Assembly: GCA_013150955.1 (NCBI GenBank)
Contig: JAADJD010000028.1
Location: 53,305 to 117,304, forward strand
Length of the DNA: 64,000 nt
Reading direction: 5' to 3'
From: Calditrichota bacterium
Lineage (GTDB): Bacteria; Calditrichota; Calditrichia; RBG-13-44-9; J042
Shown: positions 21,069 through 27,381 of the stretch, in pieces
Layout: the number at the start of each line of letters is the position of its first letter
Position numbering within the stretch: the first letter of the stretch is position 1
The notes under the pieces: generated by a model
Databases searched by the model: none
The model's input: only the letters and a program-made list of their open reading frames with translations
Told to the model about the DNA's origin: nothing
Program-made: the position numbers and the translations under genes

Positions 21069-21716
21069 ATGACACGCACGGTTTCGCTGTTTATTTTACT
21101 GGCAGGATTGTTGTGGACAATCACTGCCCCGGCCCAGGCACCTTACACCGAATTTAAAGTCGGCAAATTTAACCCGAAGGCGGTAAAATCTGGCTACCTG
21201 TTTGGCGTTCATCTGGGGCGGATGATTGATGAAAGTCTCAGCTGGGGACTGGAAATCAATTACTTCCAGCGGAATTACCGCAAGGACGTGGAAATTGTCT
21301 CAGAGGTAACCCGGGGAGGCACCAAGCCGGAAACCAAAATGCGACTGCTGGAATTTACCACTCACATTGTCCCCCTTTTATTGAAGTTGAATTATGAACA
21401 TCCCATCGCCTATGGCGCCCCGTTTTATGTGCGCGCTTCTGCAGGTGCCGGATGGGAAATGGTCTGGAACAGCGAAAACAATTACGAAGAAGGCATTAAA
21501 GATAACCGATTTTATAGCGGATTTGGCTGGCAGGTGAGTGCCGGTCTGGGATTTGCCATCAGCTCTTCCGGGAATCTGTTTGTGGATGTGTTTTACAACA
21601 ATTCCCGGGTGAAGCGAAATCGAAACGTGGTAAAAAACCTGCCTGTGTGGGAAGAGCTGGACATTTCGGGTCTGGGTGTGAAAGTGGGAGTGAGCATCGT
21701 TGGATTTGGCTGGTAA
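21069..21716 (+). CDS. Outer-membrane beta-barrel protein (PorT-like)
   Basis: 215-residue secreted protein. The signal peptide is MTRTVSLFILLAGLLWTITA, with cleavage near APAQA. Eight or so amphipathic strands follow, with GYLFGVHLGRMIDESLSWGLEINYF, YVRASAGAGWEMVW and a final VKVGVSIVGFGW strand. The pattern fits the outer_membrane_beta-barrel (OmpA/PorT-like) family. GGAGGGGG precedes ATG 21069 at good spacing; an ATG five codons earlier overlaps that site. Function unknown. A hairpin terminator follows the stop. Confidence 0.75.
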   Translation: MTRTVSLFILLAGLLWTITAPAQAPYTEFKVGKFNPKAVKSGYLFGVHLGRMIDESLSWGLEINYFQRNYRKDVEIVSEVTRGGTKPETKMRLLEFTTHIVPLLLKLNYEHPIAYGAPFYVRASAGAGWEMVWNSENNYEEGIKDNRFYSGFGWQVSAGLGFAISSSGNLFVDVFYNNSRVKRNRNVVKNLPVWEELDISGLGVKVGVSIVGFGW

Positions 21717-21743
21717 GCAGATCGACCCCCATGCCTATCATCA

Positions 21744-21775
21744 AAAATCCCCTGTGTTGATCAGGGGATTTTTTC
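21744..21775 (+). terminator. Intrinsic terminator overlapping the next gene's start region
   Basis: Perfect 11-bp stem AAAATCCCCTG (21744-21754) with CAGGGGATTTT (21762-21772), a seven-base loop and a T run. It lies between the barrel gene and the SpoIID-like gene, and its loop holds the best candidate start codons of the latter. Confidence 0.8.
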
Positions 21776-23019
21776 ATTTACCGTGGAGAACGGCGGTACT
21801 GGTTTTCTGGGTGGGGTGGATATTGAGCTGTGCCCCCACACTGCACAAACCGCCCTCACCCCGGGTGGTGGCACCCCCGGTTGAACCGGAAATCCGGGTA
21901 TGCTTAACCGATCGGCCCGCCACCACAAGCCTGCAATTTTTAACCCCTTACCGTTTGCAGCTGGAAGAAGCGGAATACATTCTGGATCGGCGCATCGGCA
22001 TACTACAGGTGCAGCTTTCCGCTGATCGGGTGGTTCTGCGTAACGACAAACGCTATTTTTCCCTTCCCGCTCCCGCGCGATTGGTTTTTGTCCCCGATGG
22101 CGGAACCGGACAATTTGAATGGAATGGCAGGGTGTATCCCGGGGTATTTTCCATTCGGCTGGATCATTCGGGAAGTTACGTCATTAATCAGTTACCGCTG
22201 GAGGAATATTTAAAAGGAGTGATTCCCTTCGAAATGCCCACCGGTCAGGCGGAATATCAGGAAGCCCTGCTGGCCCAGGCGGTTGCGGCGCGCACCTACG
22301 CGCTTTATCGTTTGCGGCAGGAGCCGCGCCACCCGGCATTCCATCTGTATGCCGATGTACGGGATCAGGTTTACGGCGGCCTGGAAAAGGTGAACGACCG
22401 GGTTCTCGAAGCCCTTCGCCGCACCCGGGGACAGGTTTTAACCCGAAGTGAGCAGGTGGCCCACGTGCAATATCATTCCACCTGTGGTGGCTATCTGGAA
22501 AATTATTTGGAGCCACCGGATTCCTCCGCTGATTTGTGGGCGGATCGGGCAGAAGACGGGGACAATTGTCGAATTTCGCCCATCTATCGCTGGATTGAAC
22601 GGCGGGATGTGGGGACGGTGCTGCAGAATCTGCAGCGCCTGGGGCGGATCGATGAGCAAGACCGGGAAGCCTGGCGGCAGCAGGGATTTGCTTTTCGCCT
22701 GCGAGTGAATGAGCGCACCACGACCGGGCGGGTTCAGTCCCTGTACATCCAGGTGGCCGACCGCGAATTCACCATTCAGGGATATGCGATTCGCCGGGTA
22801 CTGGCCGATTCATCTGGCCGGGCACTCCCCAGCAATTTTTTCCTTCTGGTAACTTCACCAACGTTGCCGGAGCAGTTTTACATCATTGGTGCGGGATTTG
22901 GTCACGGGCGGGGCATGTGTCAGTGGGGCGCTCTGGGTATGGCTCTATCCGGTGCGAATTATCGGGAAATTTTACGGTTTTACTTTCCCGCCTATGAACT
23001 CAAGAAGGTTTACCAATGA
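21754..23019 (+). CDS. SpoIID/LytB-domain lipoprotein
   Basis: About 421 residues. A basic and hydrophobic signal segment ends in the lipobox ILSC, so it is probably a lipoprotein. The SpoIID domain follows: YLKGVIPFEMPTGQAEYQ, LLAQAVAARTYALYRLR, HSTCGGYLENY, and the C-terminal GFGHGRGMCQWGALGMALS. SpoIID is a lytic transglycosylase acting on denuded glycan in spore formers; in Gram-negative relatives such as this the role is probably wall or septum remodelling. The start is unclear: GTG 21754 or TTG 21757 lies in the terminator hairpin, and a TTG at 21700 overlaps the previous gene. It overlaps the SPOR gene by four bases. Confidence 0.85.
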   Translation: MLIRGFFHLPWRTAVLVFWVGWILSCAPTLHKPPSPRVVAPPVEPEIRVCLTDRPATTSLQFLTPYRLQLEEAEYILDRRIGILQVQLSADRVVLRNDKRYFSLPAPARLVFVPDGGTGQFEWNGRVYPGVFSIRLDHSGSYVINQLPLEEYLKGVIPFEMPTGQAEYQEALLAQAVAARTYALYRLRQEPRHPAFHLYADVRDQVYGGLEKVNDRVLEALRRTRGQVLTRSEQVAHVQYHSTCGGYLENYLEPPDSSADLWADRAEDGDNCRISPIYRWIERRDVGTVLQNLQRLGRIDEQDREAWRQQGFAFRLRVNERTTTGRVQSLYIQVADREFTIQGYAIRRVLADSSGRALPSNFFLLVTSPTLPEQFYIIGAGFGHGRGMCQWGALGMALSGANYREILRFYFPAYELKKVYQ

Positions 23020-23753
23020 GGGATTTTCGTTTGTATCGAACAGGTCAAATCTTCCTGGTGGTTTTCCTTCTGTTTGCCACATCCACCGTTGTGGCTCAGG
23101 GGGATACAGCGGCCCGTCTGAAAAACTATTTGATGCACACCGACTTTCGGGAGCTCCTGCGCAAGTATGGACAGCATGAGGTGCAATTCCAGATAAAGGG
23201 CGAAGCCGAGAAGCGCCTGGAAGCCTTGCCTTATATTCTGGTGGATGGCTATCGGGTACAGATTTTTGCGGGACGGCAAATCAGTCAGGCACAAAAGGTG
23301 GCTCAACGGGCCCGCCAGGCCAATCTGGATTCGGTATACCTCGTGCACGATGCAGGCGACGGGTTGTACAAAGTTCAGGTCGGTGATTGTCGAGATCGGG
23401 ATGCCGCGCATATTCTTCTGGATCGGCTGTATTACGCCGGATTTCCCGATGGCTGGATCGTCGAAACAAAAGTACGGGTGCCCAAACGCAGACCCTCCGT
23501 TCCTGACCGCGAAGGGGAGCCAGCAGTCGTCTTTGCTGTCCAGGTGCTGGCCACGGCCGATTCGTCCAATGCCAGTCAAATCGCACAGCAGCTTAAGCAG
23601 CGGTTTAACGCGCCCGTTCGCGTGGTGGCGGAGGATCGACTATGGAAGGTGGTGATGGGGGCTTTCCCCACACGGGATCAGGCCAGCCAGCTAAGAGATC
23701 GGCTGATTCAGAACGGATATCCCGACGCCTGGATCACGCAAATTTTTCAGTAA
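23016..23753 (+). CDS. Secreted SPOR-domain protein
   Basis: 245 residues. The signal peptide (about 1-28, IFLVVFLLFATSTVVAQ) is followed by two SPOR repeats. The first is at about 75-150 (YRVQIFAGRQISQAQKVAQ, YKVQVGDCRDRDAAHILLD) and the second at about 170-243 (FAVQVLATADSSNASQIA, WKVVMGAFPTRDQASQL). SPOR domains bind peptidoglycan glycans stripped of stem peptides, often at division sites. Its ATG overlaps the TGA of the SpoIID-like gene, so the two are translationally coupled. The shared substrate, denuded glycan, supports a joint role in wall remodelling. Confidence 0.88.
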   Translation: MRDFRLYRTGQIFLVVFLLFATSTVVAQGDTAARLKNYLMHTDFRELLRKYGQHEVQFQIKGEAEKRLEALPYILVDGYRVQIFAGRQISQAQKVAQRARQANLDSVYLVHDAGDGLYKVQVGDCRDRDAAHILLDRLYYAGFPDGWIVETKVRVPKRRPSVPDREGEPAVVFAVQVLATADSSNASQIAQQLKQRFNAPVRVVAEDRLWKVVMGAFPTRDQASQLRDRLIQNGYPDAWITQIFQ

Positions 23754-23879: not shown

Positions 23880-23992
23880 TGTTCCTGGAAACGATCATGG
23901 AATGAATGTTCAATCGCACTGGATCTCGGATGAGTGGATAAATGGAGTGTTTTCGTAAAACGGGATGAAATGCTGCGGAAGGAGGGATGTCC

Positions 23993-24985
23993 ATGAATCA
24001 TGTCATTCATCGAAACAATCTGAATCTCAGTCCTCTTGCAGAGAATTTAATTCGGCGAAAAGTGCAAAAATTGGATCGTTTACTGGAGTCGTTTAATCCC
24101 GATCTGGTCTCCTTTAACATTCATTTCGACAGGGTAGAGCGGAAGGACCTGTACGCCACCCGTCTGGTGCTGGAATTACCCCACAAGACCCTCCGCGCCG
24201 AGAAACAGTCCCGGGATTTGATTCAGTCCATTAGCGAGGCGTTTGATGCCCTCTGGCGTGAGTTAAAGCAATACAAGGAATTCCTGCGCCGGGAACCGGA
24301 ATATCGGCGGAAGCAACGTCCCAGTTACAAAGAGCAAATGGCCGAGCAGGCGGATCTGAAGGAGGAAATAAAAGAGGAATATTTGCAGATTGTTTTGCGG
24401 TTGCTAAGGCGCCTGTACAATTTTACCCGTCGTGAGATTCAAATGAACATTTATCAGGGGATGATCCGGCCGGGAGACGTTCTGGTGTCCGAGGTGCTGG
24501 ACGAAGCGGTTGTGGCCGTATTCAATGAACTGCCCGCGGAATATGATGAGCTCTGGATTGAGCGGGCATTGTTTCGCAAAATCATTCAGATTGTGAATCG
24601 CAAGGTGAAAGAGCGTCGCGCCCGTCCGGTTCCGCTGGAAAAGAAGGTTACCGCCGTGGAAGATCTGGATACAGAACTGTATGAATTTTATCAGCCGGAT
24701 TTTCTGTTGCGGCTGGAAGATCTGGTGCCGGATAACCTTTTCCCGGAACCGGATAAAGTTTATGAGGAGGAAGACCTGAAACGCTTTGTGCAGCAAACCC
24801 TTTCAGGTTTACCGGAAAAGTGGCGCCAGGCATTCACGTTGATGGTGTTCGAAGAATTTACTCCGGAAGAAGTGGCAATGATTCAGGGCGTTACGCCTGA
24901 GGAAGTGCAAAAATATGTGCGTTACGCCCGCGAATATCTTCGGGAGCGGTTGAAGGAAACGGGTCTGGAACTTCCGGAAGTATAA
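23993..24985 (+). CDS. HPF/RaiA-like domain fused to sigma-70-like regions
   Basis: 330 residues. Residues about 1-100 resemble the ribosome hibernation domain (S30AE/HPF): LNLSPLAENLIRRKVQKLDRL, then VLELPHKTLRAEKQSRDLIQ and an alpha-helical end. Residues about 125-215 look like sigma region 2 (LYNFTRREIQMNIYQGMI, RPGDVLVSEVLDEAVVAVF). Residues about 265-325 match region 4 (LSGLPEKWRQAFTLMVFEE, FTPEEVAMIQGVTPEEVQKY, then YAREYLRERLKE). The product could link ribosome binding with promoter selection. ATG 23993 has GGAGG seven bases upstream; ATG 23987 overlaps that site. A zinc-finger anti-sigma-like gene follows after 33 bases. Domain calls are by eye; activity of either half is unproven. 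Confidence 0.75.
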   Translation: MNHVIHRNNLNLSPLAENLIRRKVQKLDRLLESFNPDLVSFNIHFDRVERKDLYATRLVLELPHKTLRAEKQSRDLIQSISEAFDALWRELKQYKEFLRREPEYRRKQRPSYKEQMAEQADLKEEIKEEYLQIVLRLLRRLYNFTRREIQMNIYQGMIRPGDVLVSEVLDEAVVAVFNELPAEYDELWIERALFRKIIQIVNRKVKERRARPVPLEKKVTAVEDLDTELYEFYQPDFLLRLEDLVPDNLFPEPDKVYEEEDLKRFVQQTLSGLPEKWRQAFTLMVFEEFTPEEVAMIQGVTPEEVQKYVRYAREYLRERLKETGLELPEV

Positions 24986-25018
24986 AGCAAGGGGAAAGTT
25001 AATATGGAGGTGAAATCC

Positions 25019-25240
25019 ATGACCTGCGAAAAATTCCGCAACCTGGTCTCCCTTTACCTGGACAAAGTGTTAAGCGAGTCTGAGGTGGAAATGTTCGAAT
25101 CCCATCGATCCCGCTGCGAGGCCTGTCGAAAATTTTTTGAGGAGATGGTTTACGTCAATCGGTTTTTTGGTACGGGTGAAGAGGAAGATGTTCCAGAGGC
25201 CATTGTGGAGCGGATAAAGCAAACCATTAAATCGTTGTAA
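25019..25240 (+). CDS. Zinc-finger (ZAS/HC2-like) anti-sigma-like protein
   Basis: 73-residue cytoplasmic protein with the HC2/ZAS layout. MTCEKFRNLVSLYLDKVLSE is followed by HRSRCEACRKFF, i.e. His-x3-Cys-x2-Cys, expected to bind zinc as in RsiW/ChrR-type anti-sigma factors. The C-terminus (about 45-73) is acidic then helical and lacks a membrane anchor. GGAGG eight bases before ATG 25019 supports this start. It follows the HPF-sigma fusion gene directly, the usual place for a cognate anti-sigma factor. Interaction with the fusion protein is inferred from this pairing. Confidence 0.75.
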   Translation: MTCEKFRNLVSLYLDKVLSESEVEMFESHRSRCEACRKFFEEMVYVNRFFGTGEEEDVPEAIVERIKQTIKSL

Positions 25241-25246
25241 AAAATT

Positions 25247-25270
25247 AGACCCCGCGACGCTGGCGGGGTC
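25247..25270. terminator. Terminator shared by convergent transcripts
   Basis: Stem GACCCCGC (25248-25255) with GCGGGGTC (25263-25270) and a seven-base loop. Read on the minus strand it is followed by TAATTTTTT, so it ends the micro-ORF transcript well. On the plus strand the tail is weak (TTCGTCC), but it directly follows the anti-sigma-like gene. Confidence 0.75.
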
Positions 25271-25279
25271 TTCGTCCAA

Positions 25280-25588: not shown

Positions 25589-26029
25589 TTATTGAGAGGC
25601 GTTTCGGGGAAGTAATTTATAGGTGTAGCTGAAAGGAATTTCTGCCTTGCGAATCATGGCTGAAACCGAACAGTATTTCCACTGGGAGAGTTCAATGGCT
25701 TTCTCAATCTTATCCTTGACGGCTTCCAGATTGTCCCCGTAAAACCGGTATTCCAGATCAATTTTGGTGTACACCTTGGGATGTTCCTCGGCCCGGTTTC
25801 CCTTGACGACGATTTCGAACCTGTCCACATCCACACGCATTTTTTTAAGCAGGGACGCCACGTCGGCGCCGGTGCATCCTGCCAGACTCATTAAAAATAA
25901 TTCCATGGGACGCGTTCCCGCTTCGGAGCCGCCAAAGGCCTCGGGGCCATCCATTACCACCCAATGTCGCGATTCGCCACGTCCCACAAAGGTAATACCT
26001 TCCACCTGTTTCACAATAATTTCTGGCAT
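25589..26029 (-). CDS. OsmC/Ohr-family peroxiredoxin-like protein
   Basis: 146-residue OsmC-fold protein. The two conserved cysteines are in LAGCTGADVASLLKKM (about residue 52) and WKYCSVSAMI (about 118). In this family they reduce organic hydroperoxides, forming a dimer with active sites at the interface. The first residues (MPEIIVKQVEGITFVGRGES) match YhfA-like OsmC members rather than Ohr. GGGAG lies seven bases before the ATG. It follows the TlpA-like gene by 30 bases on the same strand, so it belongs to a thiol-redox transcript. Confidence 0.88.
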   Translation of the reverse strand: MPEIIVKQVEGITFVGRGESRHWVVMDGPEAFGGSEAGTRPMELFLMSLAGCTGADVASLLKKMRVDVDRFEIVVKGNRAEEHPKVYTKIDLEYRFYGDNLEAVKDKIEKAIELSQWKYCSVSAMIRKAEIPFSYTYKLLPRNASQ

Positions 26030-26059
26030 AAATTCGCTCCCTTTGTTTTTGCTGCCGGT

Positions 26060-26569
26060 TTACAACAGTTCTTTAATGCGCTTTTCAAAAAAGGCTTCCG
26101 GGCGGTAGCCAATAATCCGATCAACGATGTGTCCCTGGCGATTGACGATGAACGTGGTGGGAATGGCCTGAATGCCACCGTAATCCAGCACTACTTTCTG
26201 ATTCCCCAGGACGATGGGGTAATTGATGTTGTATTTTTCCATAAAGGGACGGACAACTTCCCAGCCCGGTCGATCTAATGAAATGCCAATAATGGCCAGG
26301 CCATCGTCTTTGTAGCGATCGTACAACCGGACGAATCCGGGAATTTCCTCCCGGCAGGGGCCACACCAGGTTGCCCAGAAGTTAATGATGGTTACCTTGC
26401 CACGGAAGTCGGCCAGGCGTACAATGTTCCCCTGGTGGTCTTCCAGAGCGAAGTCGGGTGCCGCAGCCGGATCCGTGGTCGTCGTCGCGCTTTCTTTCTC
26501 ACCACCGCAACCGGTCAGCAACGCCAGCCCGATGATCGGGATCAGAATAAAAAGCCATTTCTTCATCAT
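26060..26569 (-). CDS. TlpA/ResA-like thioredoxin-fold lipoprotein
   Basis: 169 residues. A lipoprotein signal ending LLTGC (Cys21) is followed by a thioredoxin/AhpC-TSA domain from about residue 38 with the redox motif WATWCGPCREE (Cys69/Cys72) and the cis-Pro segment GIQAIPTTFIVNRQG. It would act as a membrane-tethered periplasmic thiol reductase, for instance in cytochrome c maturation or oxidative repair. It lies between PDO and osmC-like genes, 15 and 30 bases away. ATG 26569 or 26566 could start it; AGGA lies upstream. Confidence 0.92.
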   Translation of the reverse strand: MMKKWLFILIPIIGLALLTGCGGEKESATTTTDPAAAPDFALEDHQGNIVRLADFRGKVTIINFWATWCGPCREEIPGFVRLYDRYKDDGLAIIGISLDRPGWEVVRPFMEKYNINYPIVLGNQKVVLDYGGIQAIPTTFIVNRQGHIVDRIIGYRPEAFFEKRIKELL

Positions 26570-26584
26570 AGAAATATCCTGTGT

Positions 26585-27253
26585 TTAGTTTTCGGAATAC
26601 ATTTGTTTGTACCCTTCCAGCACCCGCTGAACAAAATGGGTTTCCGGCAGGGCACCCTCAATGGCATAGCTCTCTCCCACCATGGTTCGCGGTACCCCGT
26701 GAACGTTGTACCTGACGGCCAGGTGTGGAAATTCAGTGGCTTCCACCATGTCGGCGGTGATGTGTTCGTTGACCATGGCAATTTTATGGGCCAGTAATAC
26801 CGCTGATGGACAATAGGGACAGGTGGGAGTCACAAAGACCTGCAACCGCAATGGCTTGTTGATCTGTGCAATGAGCTGTTTGCTTTGCTCGCTCAGATCG
26901 GGTTCGCCCCTGGCAACCACCTGAATGTCTTCCAGCAGAGAACCAAATTCATAACCGGATGGAATGCCGTAATAACGAATGCCAAAGTCCTTTCCATTTT
27001 CATCCAGAATCACCAGTGCAGGTACTTTGTCTACCTGGTATTGATCAACCTTTTCTTTGTCGTTGATAAAGTTGTAGACATCCAGTGTTACTTTTCCCCC
27101 GCTTAAATCCCGAATTTCTTCCAGCAGTTGACGGGTTTCCCGGCAGTACTGGCATTCCAGCTCCTGGGTAAAATAGACCAGCTGCACCTTTCGCGGAAGC
27201 TTCTCCAGCATATCCCGCACGGTTCTTTCGTTTTCGCCTGTAATAAAGGCCAT
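26585..27253 (-). CDS. Protein disulfide oxidoreductase (tandem thioredoxin folds)
   Basis: 222 residues built from two thioredoxin-like halves, each with its own active site: ELECQYCRETRQ near residue 33 and TPTCPYCPSAVLL near 147. The second half ends with the cis-Pro stretch NVHGVPRTMVG. This is the PDO/glutaredoxin-like layout known from thermophilic archaea and bacteria, acting in cytoplasmic disulfide formation or as a hydroperoxide-system reductase. GGAGGTGTCGA precedes ATG 27253; upstream in-frame sequence lacks a site. It is probably the first gene of the PDO-tlpA-osmC group. Confidence 0.88.
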   Translation of the reverse strand: MAFITGENERTVRDMLEKLPRKVQLVYFTQELECQYCRETRQLLEEIRDLSGGKVTLDVYNFINDKEKVDQYQVDKVPALVILDENGKDFGIRYYGIPSGYEFGSLLEDIQVVARGEPDLSEQSKQLIAQINKPLRLQVFVTPTCPYCPSAVLLAHKIAMVNEHITADMVEATEFPHLAVRYNVHGVPRTMVGESYAIEGALPETHFVQRVLEGYKQMYSEN

Positions 27254-27381
27254 TCGACACCTCCAAAATTTTTGCCTGTTTAACGTTCTCCTACATAGAT
27301 GAGTTTCGGACATAAAGGTTACAAATTGTCCGCGGGTAGAGCCTGCCAGAGACGGGAGAACGTTGCCTTCTTACCGGCATT

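Follow-up and report, generated by a model that had tools for sequence, protein, structure and literature searches.

The window analysed here, a stretch of 64,000 nucleotides from a contig of a Calditrichota bacterium, carries a gene whose product joins an HPF/RaiA-type ribosome-hibernation domain to a sigma-like half, and this gene is followed by one for a small zinc anti-sigma-like (ZAS) protein (Table 1). Alternative starts exist for both, an in-frame ATG at 23987 for the fusion gene and a start at 25004 for the ZAS gene. A GC-rich hairpin behind the ZAS gene is the likely end of the unit, and a similar hairpin lies 3′ of the ZAS gene in a second genome of the same genus (G026). The sigma-70 promoter scan returned no more matches than chance. 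Just upstream of the fusion gene lie SpoIID-like and SPOR-domain genes (window positions 21700-23753), in an order that is kept at loci L004, L009 and L010, and genes for OsmC-like, ResA/TlpA-like and thioredoxin-fold proteins on the minus strand (25589-27313) face the ZAS gene. The redox neighbourhood formed by these latter genes would suit an RsrA-like zinc sensor.

Table 1. Features of the fusion gene and its surroundings, in window coordinates.
Feature	Position	Strand	Basis
HPF-sigma-like fusion gene, 330 aa	23993..24985	+	ORF, Pfam/NCBIfam, AlphaFold model, solved-structure matches
S30AE / HPF-RaiA domain, residues 1-105	23993..24307	+	Pfam, model, Z to RaiA/HPF
Sigma2-like helical domain, residues 122-210	24356..24622	+	TIGR02937, model, alignment with control sigmas
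Asp170, equivalent of the region 2.2 Gln, family-invariant	within sigma2-like domain	+	alignment
ELYEFYQPD motif in the sigma2-sigma4 linker; E231, Y233, Q234, P235 and D236 invariant	24674..24700	+	family alignment
Sigma4-like HTH domain, residues 253-323	24749..24961	+	PhyR_sigma-like, Sigma70_r4_2
Sigma4 recognition helix, net charge 0	~24893-24937	+	charge count
Small soluble zinc anti-sigma-like gene (ZAS, RsrA-like), 73 aa	25019..25240	+	zf-HC2, TIGR03988
GC-rich hairpin 3′ of the ZAS gene	25247..25271	.	likely end of unit

An earlier note on this DNA had read the N-terminal ~100 residues of the fusion protein as an HPF/RaiA domain and the remainder as sigma regions 2 and 4, and both readings were borne out by profile searches, structure prediction and comparison with solved structures. 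In Pfam, residues 5-98 matched Ribosomal_S30AE (E 3.8e-10), and residues ~266-314 matched PhyR_sigma-like (8e-8), the best region-4 match, as well as Sigma70_r4_2 (6e-7). The NCBIfam sigma70-ECF profile (TIGR02937) covered residues 132-320 at 9e-11, with a bit score slightly below the curated cut-off. Pfam matched neither a receiver domain nor the C-terminal S30AE_C dimerisation domain of long HPF in the window protein, and the sigma fold stands in the place of the latter. Structure prediction of the full protein, which had been proposed as a check, revealed both the S30AE/HPF fold and the sigma2/sigma4 topology; this AlphaFold model, built on a 20-sequence alignment, reached pLDDT ~90 for the HPF, sigma2 and sigma4 domains and low values in the linker (residues 215-250). 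Solved structures of RaiA/HPF matched residues 1-105 with Z 14-15, and those of ECF sigmas matched residues about 122-329 with Z 13.5-15.9. The best match of the sigma half was the EcfG-type RpoE held by the anti-sigma NepR (5uxx; Z 15.9 over 150 residues, 2.9 Å), and the next were SigW, CnrH and PhyR (Z 12.2 for PhyR). The sigma half was modelled in the closed conformation, as in 5uxx; since AlphaFold may be biased towards closed ECF sigmas, this anti-sigma-bound pose is weak evidence. The helix-turn-helix-like string that had been pointed out earlier corresponds to residues 289-308 and falls inside sigma4.

The H-x3-C-x2-C zinc anti-sigma pattern described in the following gene also proved to be real. 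The product matched zf-HC2 in Pfam (3.7e-8) and the RsrA-type anti-sigma profile TIGR03988 in NCBIfam (2e-6), and its zinc motif runs C3...H29-x3-C33-x2-C36, with a cysteine 26 residues before the histidine, a spacing that fits RsrA. Among the ~30 fusion loci inspected, a ZAS gene adjoins the fusion gene in the window genus and at no locus outside it. The co-occurrence of the two genes in relatives, which had been named as a point to be checked, therefore holds within the window genus and fails at the other loci, and the proposed role of the anti-sigma as a second input is not a feature of the family.

A contig scan with the single window protein returned no relatives, and an alignment-based profile was needed to detect members. 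Full-length homologues with 40-50% identity were found in Calditrichota, where 6 of 40 genomes (the window genome and five others) carry the fusion. A profile-guided scan of 84,980 species added members in Alpha- and Gammaproteobacteria, in Comamonadaceae (Betaproteobacteria) and in one Gaiellaceae actinobacterium, and the two-phylum samples gave matches in 5 of 398 genomes (two of them partial) and in 1 of 246, with the query genomes counted in. The domain order, for which a search across Calditrichota/FCB genomes had been suggested, is the same in these six genomes and is kept throughout the wider family. The fusion is thus a rare but real family, and in its tree Calditrichota, Alpha/Gamma and a group that includes the form found in the tLST heat-resistance island stand as separate clades. 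A chance or artefactual fusion was considered and rejected, as the same order occurs in several phyla together with a common linker motif. Among the PDB sequences, the family profile picked up E. coli sigmaE (1e-12) as well as HPF of Thermus and E. coli (~1e-8 to 1e-7), which means that neither homology depends on a single member. Conservation within the family peaks at E-x-Y-Q-P-D, usually inside [LF]YE[FY]YQPD[DE], which is located in the linker and not in a textbook sigma region. Two alphaproteobacterial sigma-like ORFs (L057, 4001-4537; L075, 1384-2100) have a YE[FW]YQPDE motif with no HPF domain seen, which assigns the motif to the sigma-like module.

The tLST form is represented by one 381-aa protein that recurs in Pseudomonas, Pantoea and other genomes. 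In the heat-resistance island of E. coli G3/10 this protein, annotated as 'hypothetical protein', lies between HdeD and trx-GI, and by this position it is orf11 of the tLST; its relatives were found on 303 plasmids, mostly of Klebsiella and Enterobacter (tblastn). According to PMC8290217, no protein of known function shares 30% identity or more with tLST orf11, and a 'sigma 24 like' factor is encoded by a divergent tLST of Methylobacillus. Against Pfam and NCBIfam, neither domain of ORF11 was significant. In a profile-profile comparison (hhalign), ORF11 and its near relatives aligned with the Calditrichota proteins over 301 columns with E 4e-34, which identifies tLST ORF11 as a full-length homologue of the fusion protein. 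The AlphaFold model of ORF11 agreed, with Z 13.9 to HPF and a closed sigma2-sigma4 arrangement with Z 14.4 to 5uxx and 10.9 to PhyR. ORF11 therefore has the same two folds and linker motif as the window protein, but it is 21% identical to it, mobile, situated upstream of trx-GI, and below Pfam/NCBIfam detection in its domains. In many proteobacteria the gene is surrounded by stress genes of the tLST type, and the neighbours of the proteobacterial members include genes for ClpK or ClpK-like AAA proteins, FtsH, Hsp20, HdeD, YfdX, Trx, KefB and cardiolipin-synthase-like proteins; beside the Calditrichota fusion, no tLST genes were found at the four loci scanned (L033-L036).

The sigma half departs from working sigma factors at several positions. 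The net charge of the sigma4 recognition helix ranges from -3 to +1 (mean -1.0) in 20 members, against +1 to +5 (mean +3.3) in 35 control proteins, which are mostly ECF sigmas from six genomes and include a few duplicates and one non-sigma row; charge is a proxy here, and the rows are related, so that the p-value of the rank test overstates their independence and is indicative only. The region 2.2 Gln, which corresponds to sigma70 Q406 and, according to work on sigma70, is important for core binding, is replaced by Asp in 20/20 members and is present in nearly all aligned controls. The aromatic positions for −10 melting are mostly lost family-wide. Region 2.3-2.4 stays basic (+4 to +7) in the Calditrichota members, in which some nucleic-acid contact may survive there. 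PhyR is a known sigma mimic that acts as an anti-anti-sigma factor; its recognition helix carries a charge of -4 and that of a PhyR-like protein -3, versus +4 to +6 in the EcfG sigmas of the same genomes (the G223 locus, intended as a PhyR control, gave its EcfG sigma and was left out of the mimic controls). The losses in the sigma half resemble those of the PhyR sigma mimic. The promoter-choosing sigma factor envisaged in the earlier note conflicts with the loss of helix charge, with the Asp in region 2.2 and with this PhyR-like pattern, and a coupling between ribosome and transcription is possible via a mimic or docking module rather than through direct promoter recognition.

The comparison with known systems can be drawn more closely. 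With PhyR, the fusion shares the degenerate sigma2-sigma4 unit without a basic recognition helix, as well as the Pfam and structure matches given above, but its partner domain is an N-terminal HPF instead of the C-terminal phospho-receiver of PhyR, and there is no NepR nearby. With the ECF sigmas (RpoE, SigW, CnrH, EcfG), it shares the fold and order of sigma2 and sigma4 and a profile homology of 1e-12, and it differs in the loss of positive charge from the recognition helix, the region 2.2 Asp, the unique YEFYQPD linker and the HPF domain in front. With short and long HPF/RaiA proteins, it shares the N-terminal fold (Z 14-15) and basic residues at the positions of E. coli HPF R83 and K87 (20/21 and 19/21 members, respectively), but its C-terminal half is sigma2-sigma4 instead of the long-HPF dimerisation domain, and every Calditrichota genome with the fusion keeps a separate short HPF besides. 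The K23/K26 positions are basic in all Calditrichota members and in few others. From the fold and the kept basic residues, we infer that the HPF domain would bind the small subunit of idle ribosomes, like other HPF/RaiA domains.

The two modules can separate, as seen in G026. At the corresponding place in this genome (L009, 1244-1926), the gene ends with the HPF half; of the sigma half, only reading-frame remnants with stops are left, and the ZAS gene comes next, with its first Cys, a zinc ligand, changed to Trp. Comparison of the window with G026 shows strong constraint on the HPF half (omega ~0.09, YN00), although dS is saturated with NG86, so that this omega does not speak to selection after the loss of the sigma half. 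At the syntenic place in G035, whose genome is 62% complete, nothing but an HPF-like stretch (L010, 100-444) was seen, and its frame is disturbed inside the domain.

Established here are the two folds, the losses at promoter and core contacts, the new linker motif with its invariant residues, and the existence of the family together with its setting in stress islands; ribosome binding, the binding of an anti-sigma or another partner, and the direction of the signal are inferred. We tentatively propose, with slightly less than even confidence, that the protein is a paralogous (second) hibernation factor whose sigma-like half mimics a sigma in order to dock to another protein, possibly as a trap for an anti-sigma. 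The C-terminal half (sigma2-linker-sigma4) would derive from an ECF sigma, degraded to the point that promoters are no longer read, and would act as a docking mimic in the manner of PhyR. Its most likely specific use would be to hold an anti-sigma, which in the window genus would be the adjacent ZAS protein, and a true sigma would then be released under stress or when ribosomes fall idle. In the tLST relatives, the partner would be supplied by the host, as a host anti-sigma or RNA polymerase, because no anti-sigma of their own was found among the tLST genes checked. The anti-sigma trap is the most specific form of this idea and fits both the ZAS neighbour in the window genus and the PhyR-like wear; the lack of an anti-sigma gene beside the fusion outside the window genus counts against the mimic or trap, as does the basic region 2.3-2.4 of the Calditrichota members. 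A wider version, in which the HPF domain senses idle ribosomes, the sigma mimic traps an anti-sigma or RNA polymerase, and this partner switch has been spread by the heat-resistance island, is conceivable but doubtful.

In the main rival, the sigma2-like part would not recognise promoters but would bind core RNA polymerase at the beta′ clamp and keep the polymerase parked beside idle ribosomes, by which the transcription and translation machines would both be shut down. This would agree with region 2.2 being among the better conserved parts (D-x2-[VI]-D-E-A), and a universal target is attractive for a mobile tLST form that occurs in many hosts and has no anti-sigma among the genes checked. However, the core-binding Gln of the same region is Asp in every member, and we consider such a tether or silencer unlikely. 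The switch suggested in the earlier note, in which the HPF domain and the ZAS protein would gate a true sigma factor, would be in keeping with the complete sigma2/sigma4 fold, the match of the family profile to E. coli sigmaE, the basic region 2.3-2.4 of the Calditrichota members, the ZAS gene adjoining the fusion in the window genus, and the deposited annotations of members, which sometimes read 'sigma-70 family'. It is nevertheless quite improbable, given that the recognition-helix charge, the region 2.2 Gln and most of the −10 aromatics are lost family-wide and that ZAS is not conserved.

It is also conceivable that the sigma-like half is purely structural, replacing the long-HPF C-terminal domain in dimerisation or rRNA contact, and that the protein acts solely on ribosomes. 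The long-HPF C-terminal domain is indeed missing from the Pfam matches of the window protein, the fusion comes on top of another HPF in every Calditrichota genome in which it occurs, and the HTH surface is no longer DNA-like. On the other side, sigma2 and sigma4 have stayed together, the linker motif is highly conserved, and the motif-bearing ORFs without HPF at L057 and L075 imply that the sigma-like module has a life apart from HPF; we give this explanation a low probability. The docking mimic remains the reading that we prefer.

Each of the two folds and sigma mimicry itself were known already; the searchable literature yielded no report of an S30AE-sigma fusion, of an HPF domain in the tLST or of the identity of ORF11. 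ORF11, described in the tLST literature as being without known function, hereby gains a concrete identity. Hundreds of plasmids in Klebsiella, Enterobacter, Acinetobacter and E. coli bear the tLST island, and the heat-resistance island with ORF11 spreads among Klebsiella, E. coli and Pseudomonas. In E. coli, deletion of orf11 left lipid oxidation unchanged, and orf11 is not listed among the genes whose deletion lowers resistance to heat or chlorine (PMC8407380); therefore, no phenotype yet supports any mechanism, and these results do not bear on ribosome phenotypes. With this family, the possibility that a single protein connects ribosome hibernation with the transcription machinery becomes open to experiment, and both ends of the connection are amenable, in laboratory strains of E. 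coli, to standard ribosome and RNA polymerase assays. In two E. coli copies of the tLST (L093, 1459-4563; L094), orf11 is split by inserted genes for a mechanosensitive channel and a hypothetical protein. Furthermore, tLST segments in Desulfovibrio sp. MES5 (L050) and in a Spirochaetia MAG (L052), on which the argument does not depend, encode an ORF11 identical to the Pseudomonas/Pantoea tLST protein, and these copies reflect either recent transfer or assembly contamination.
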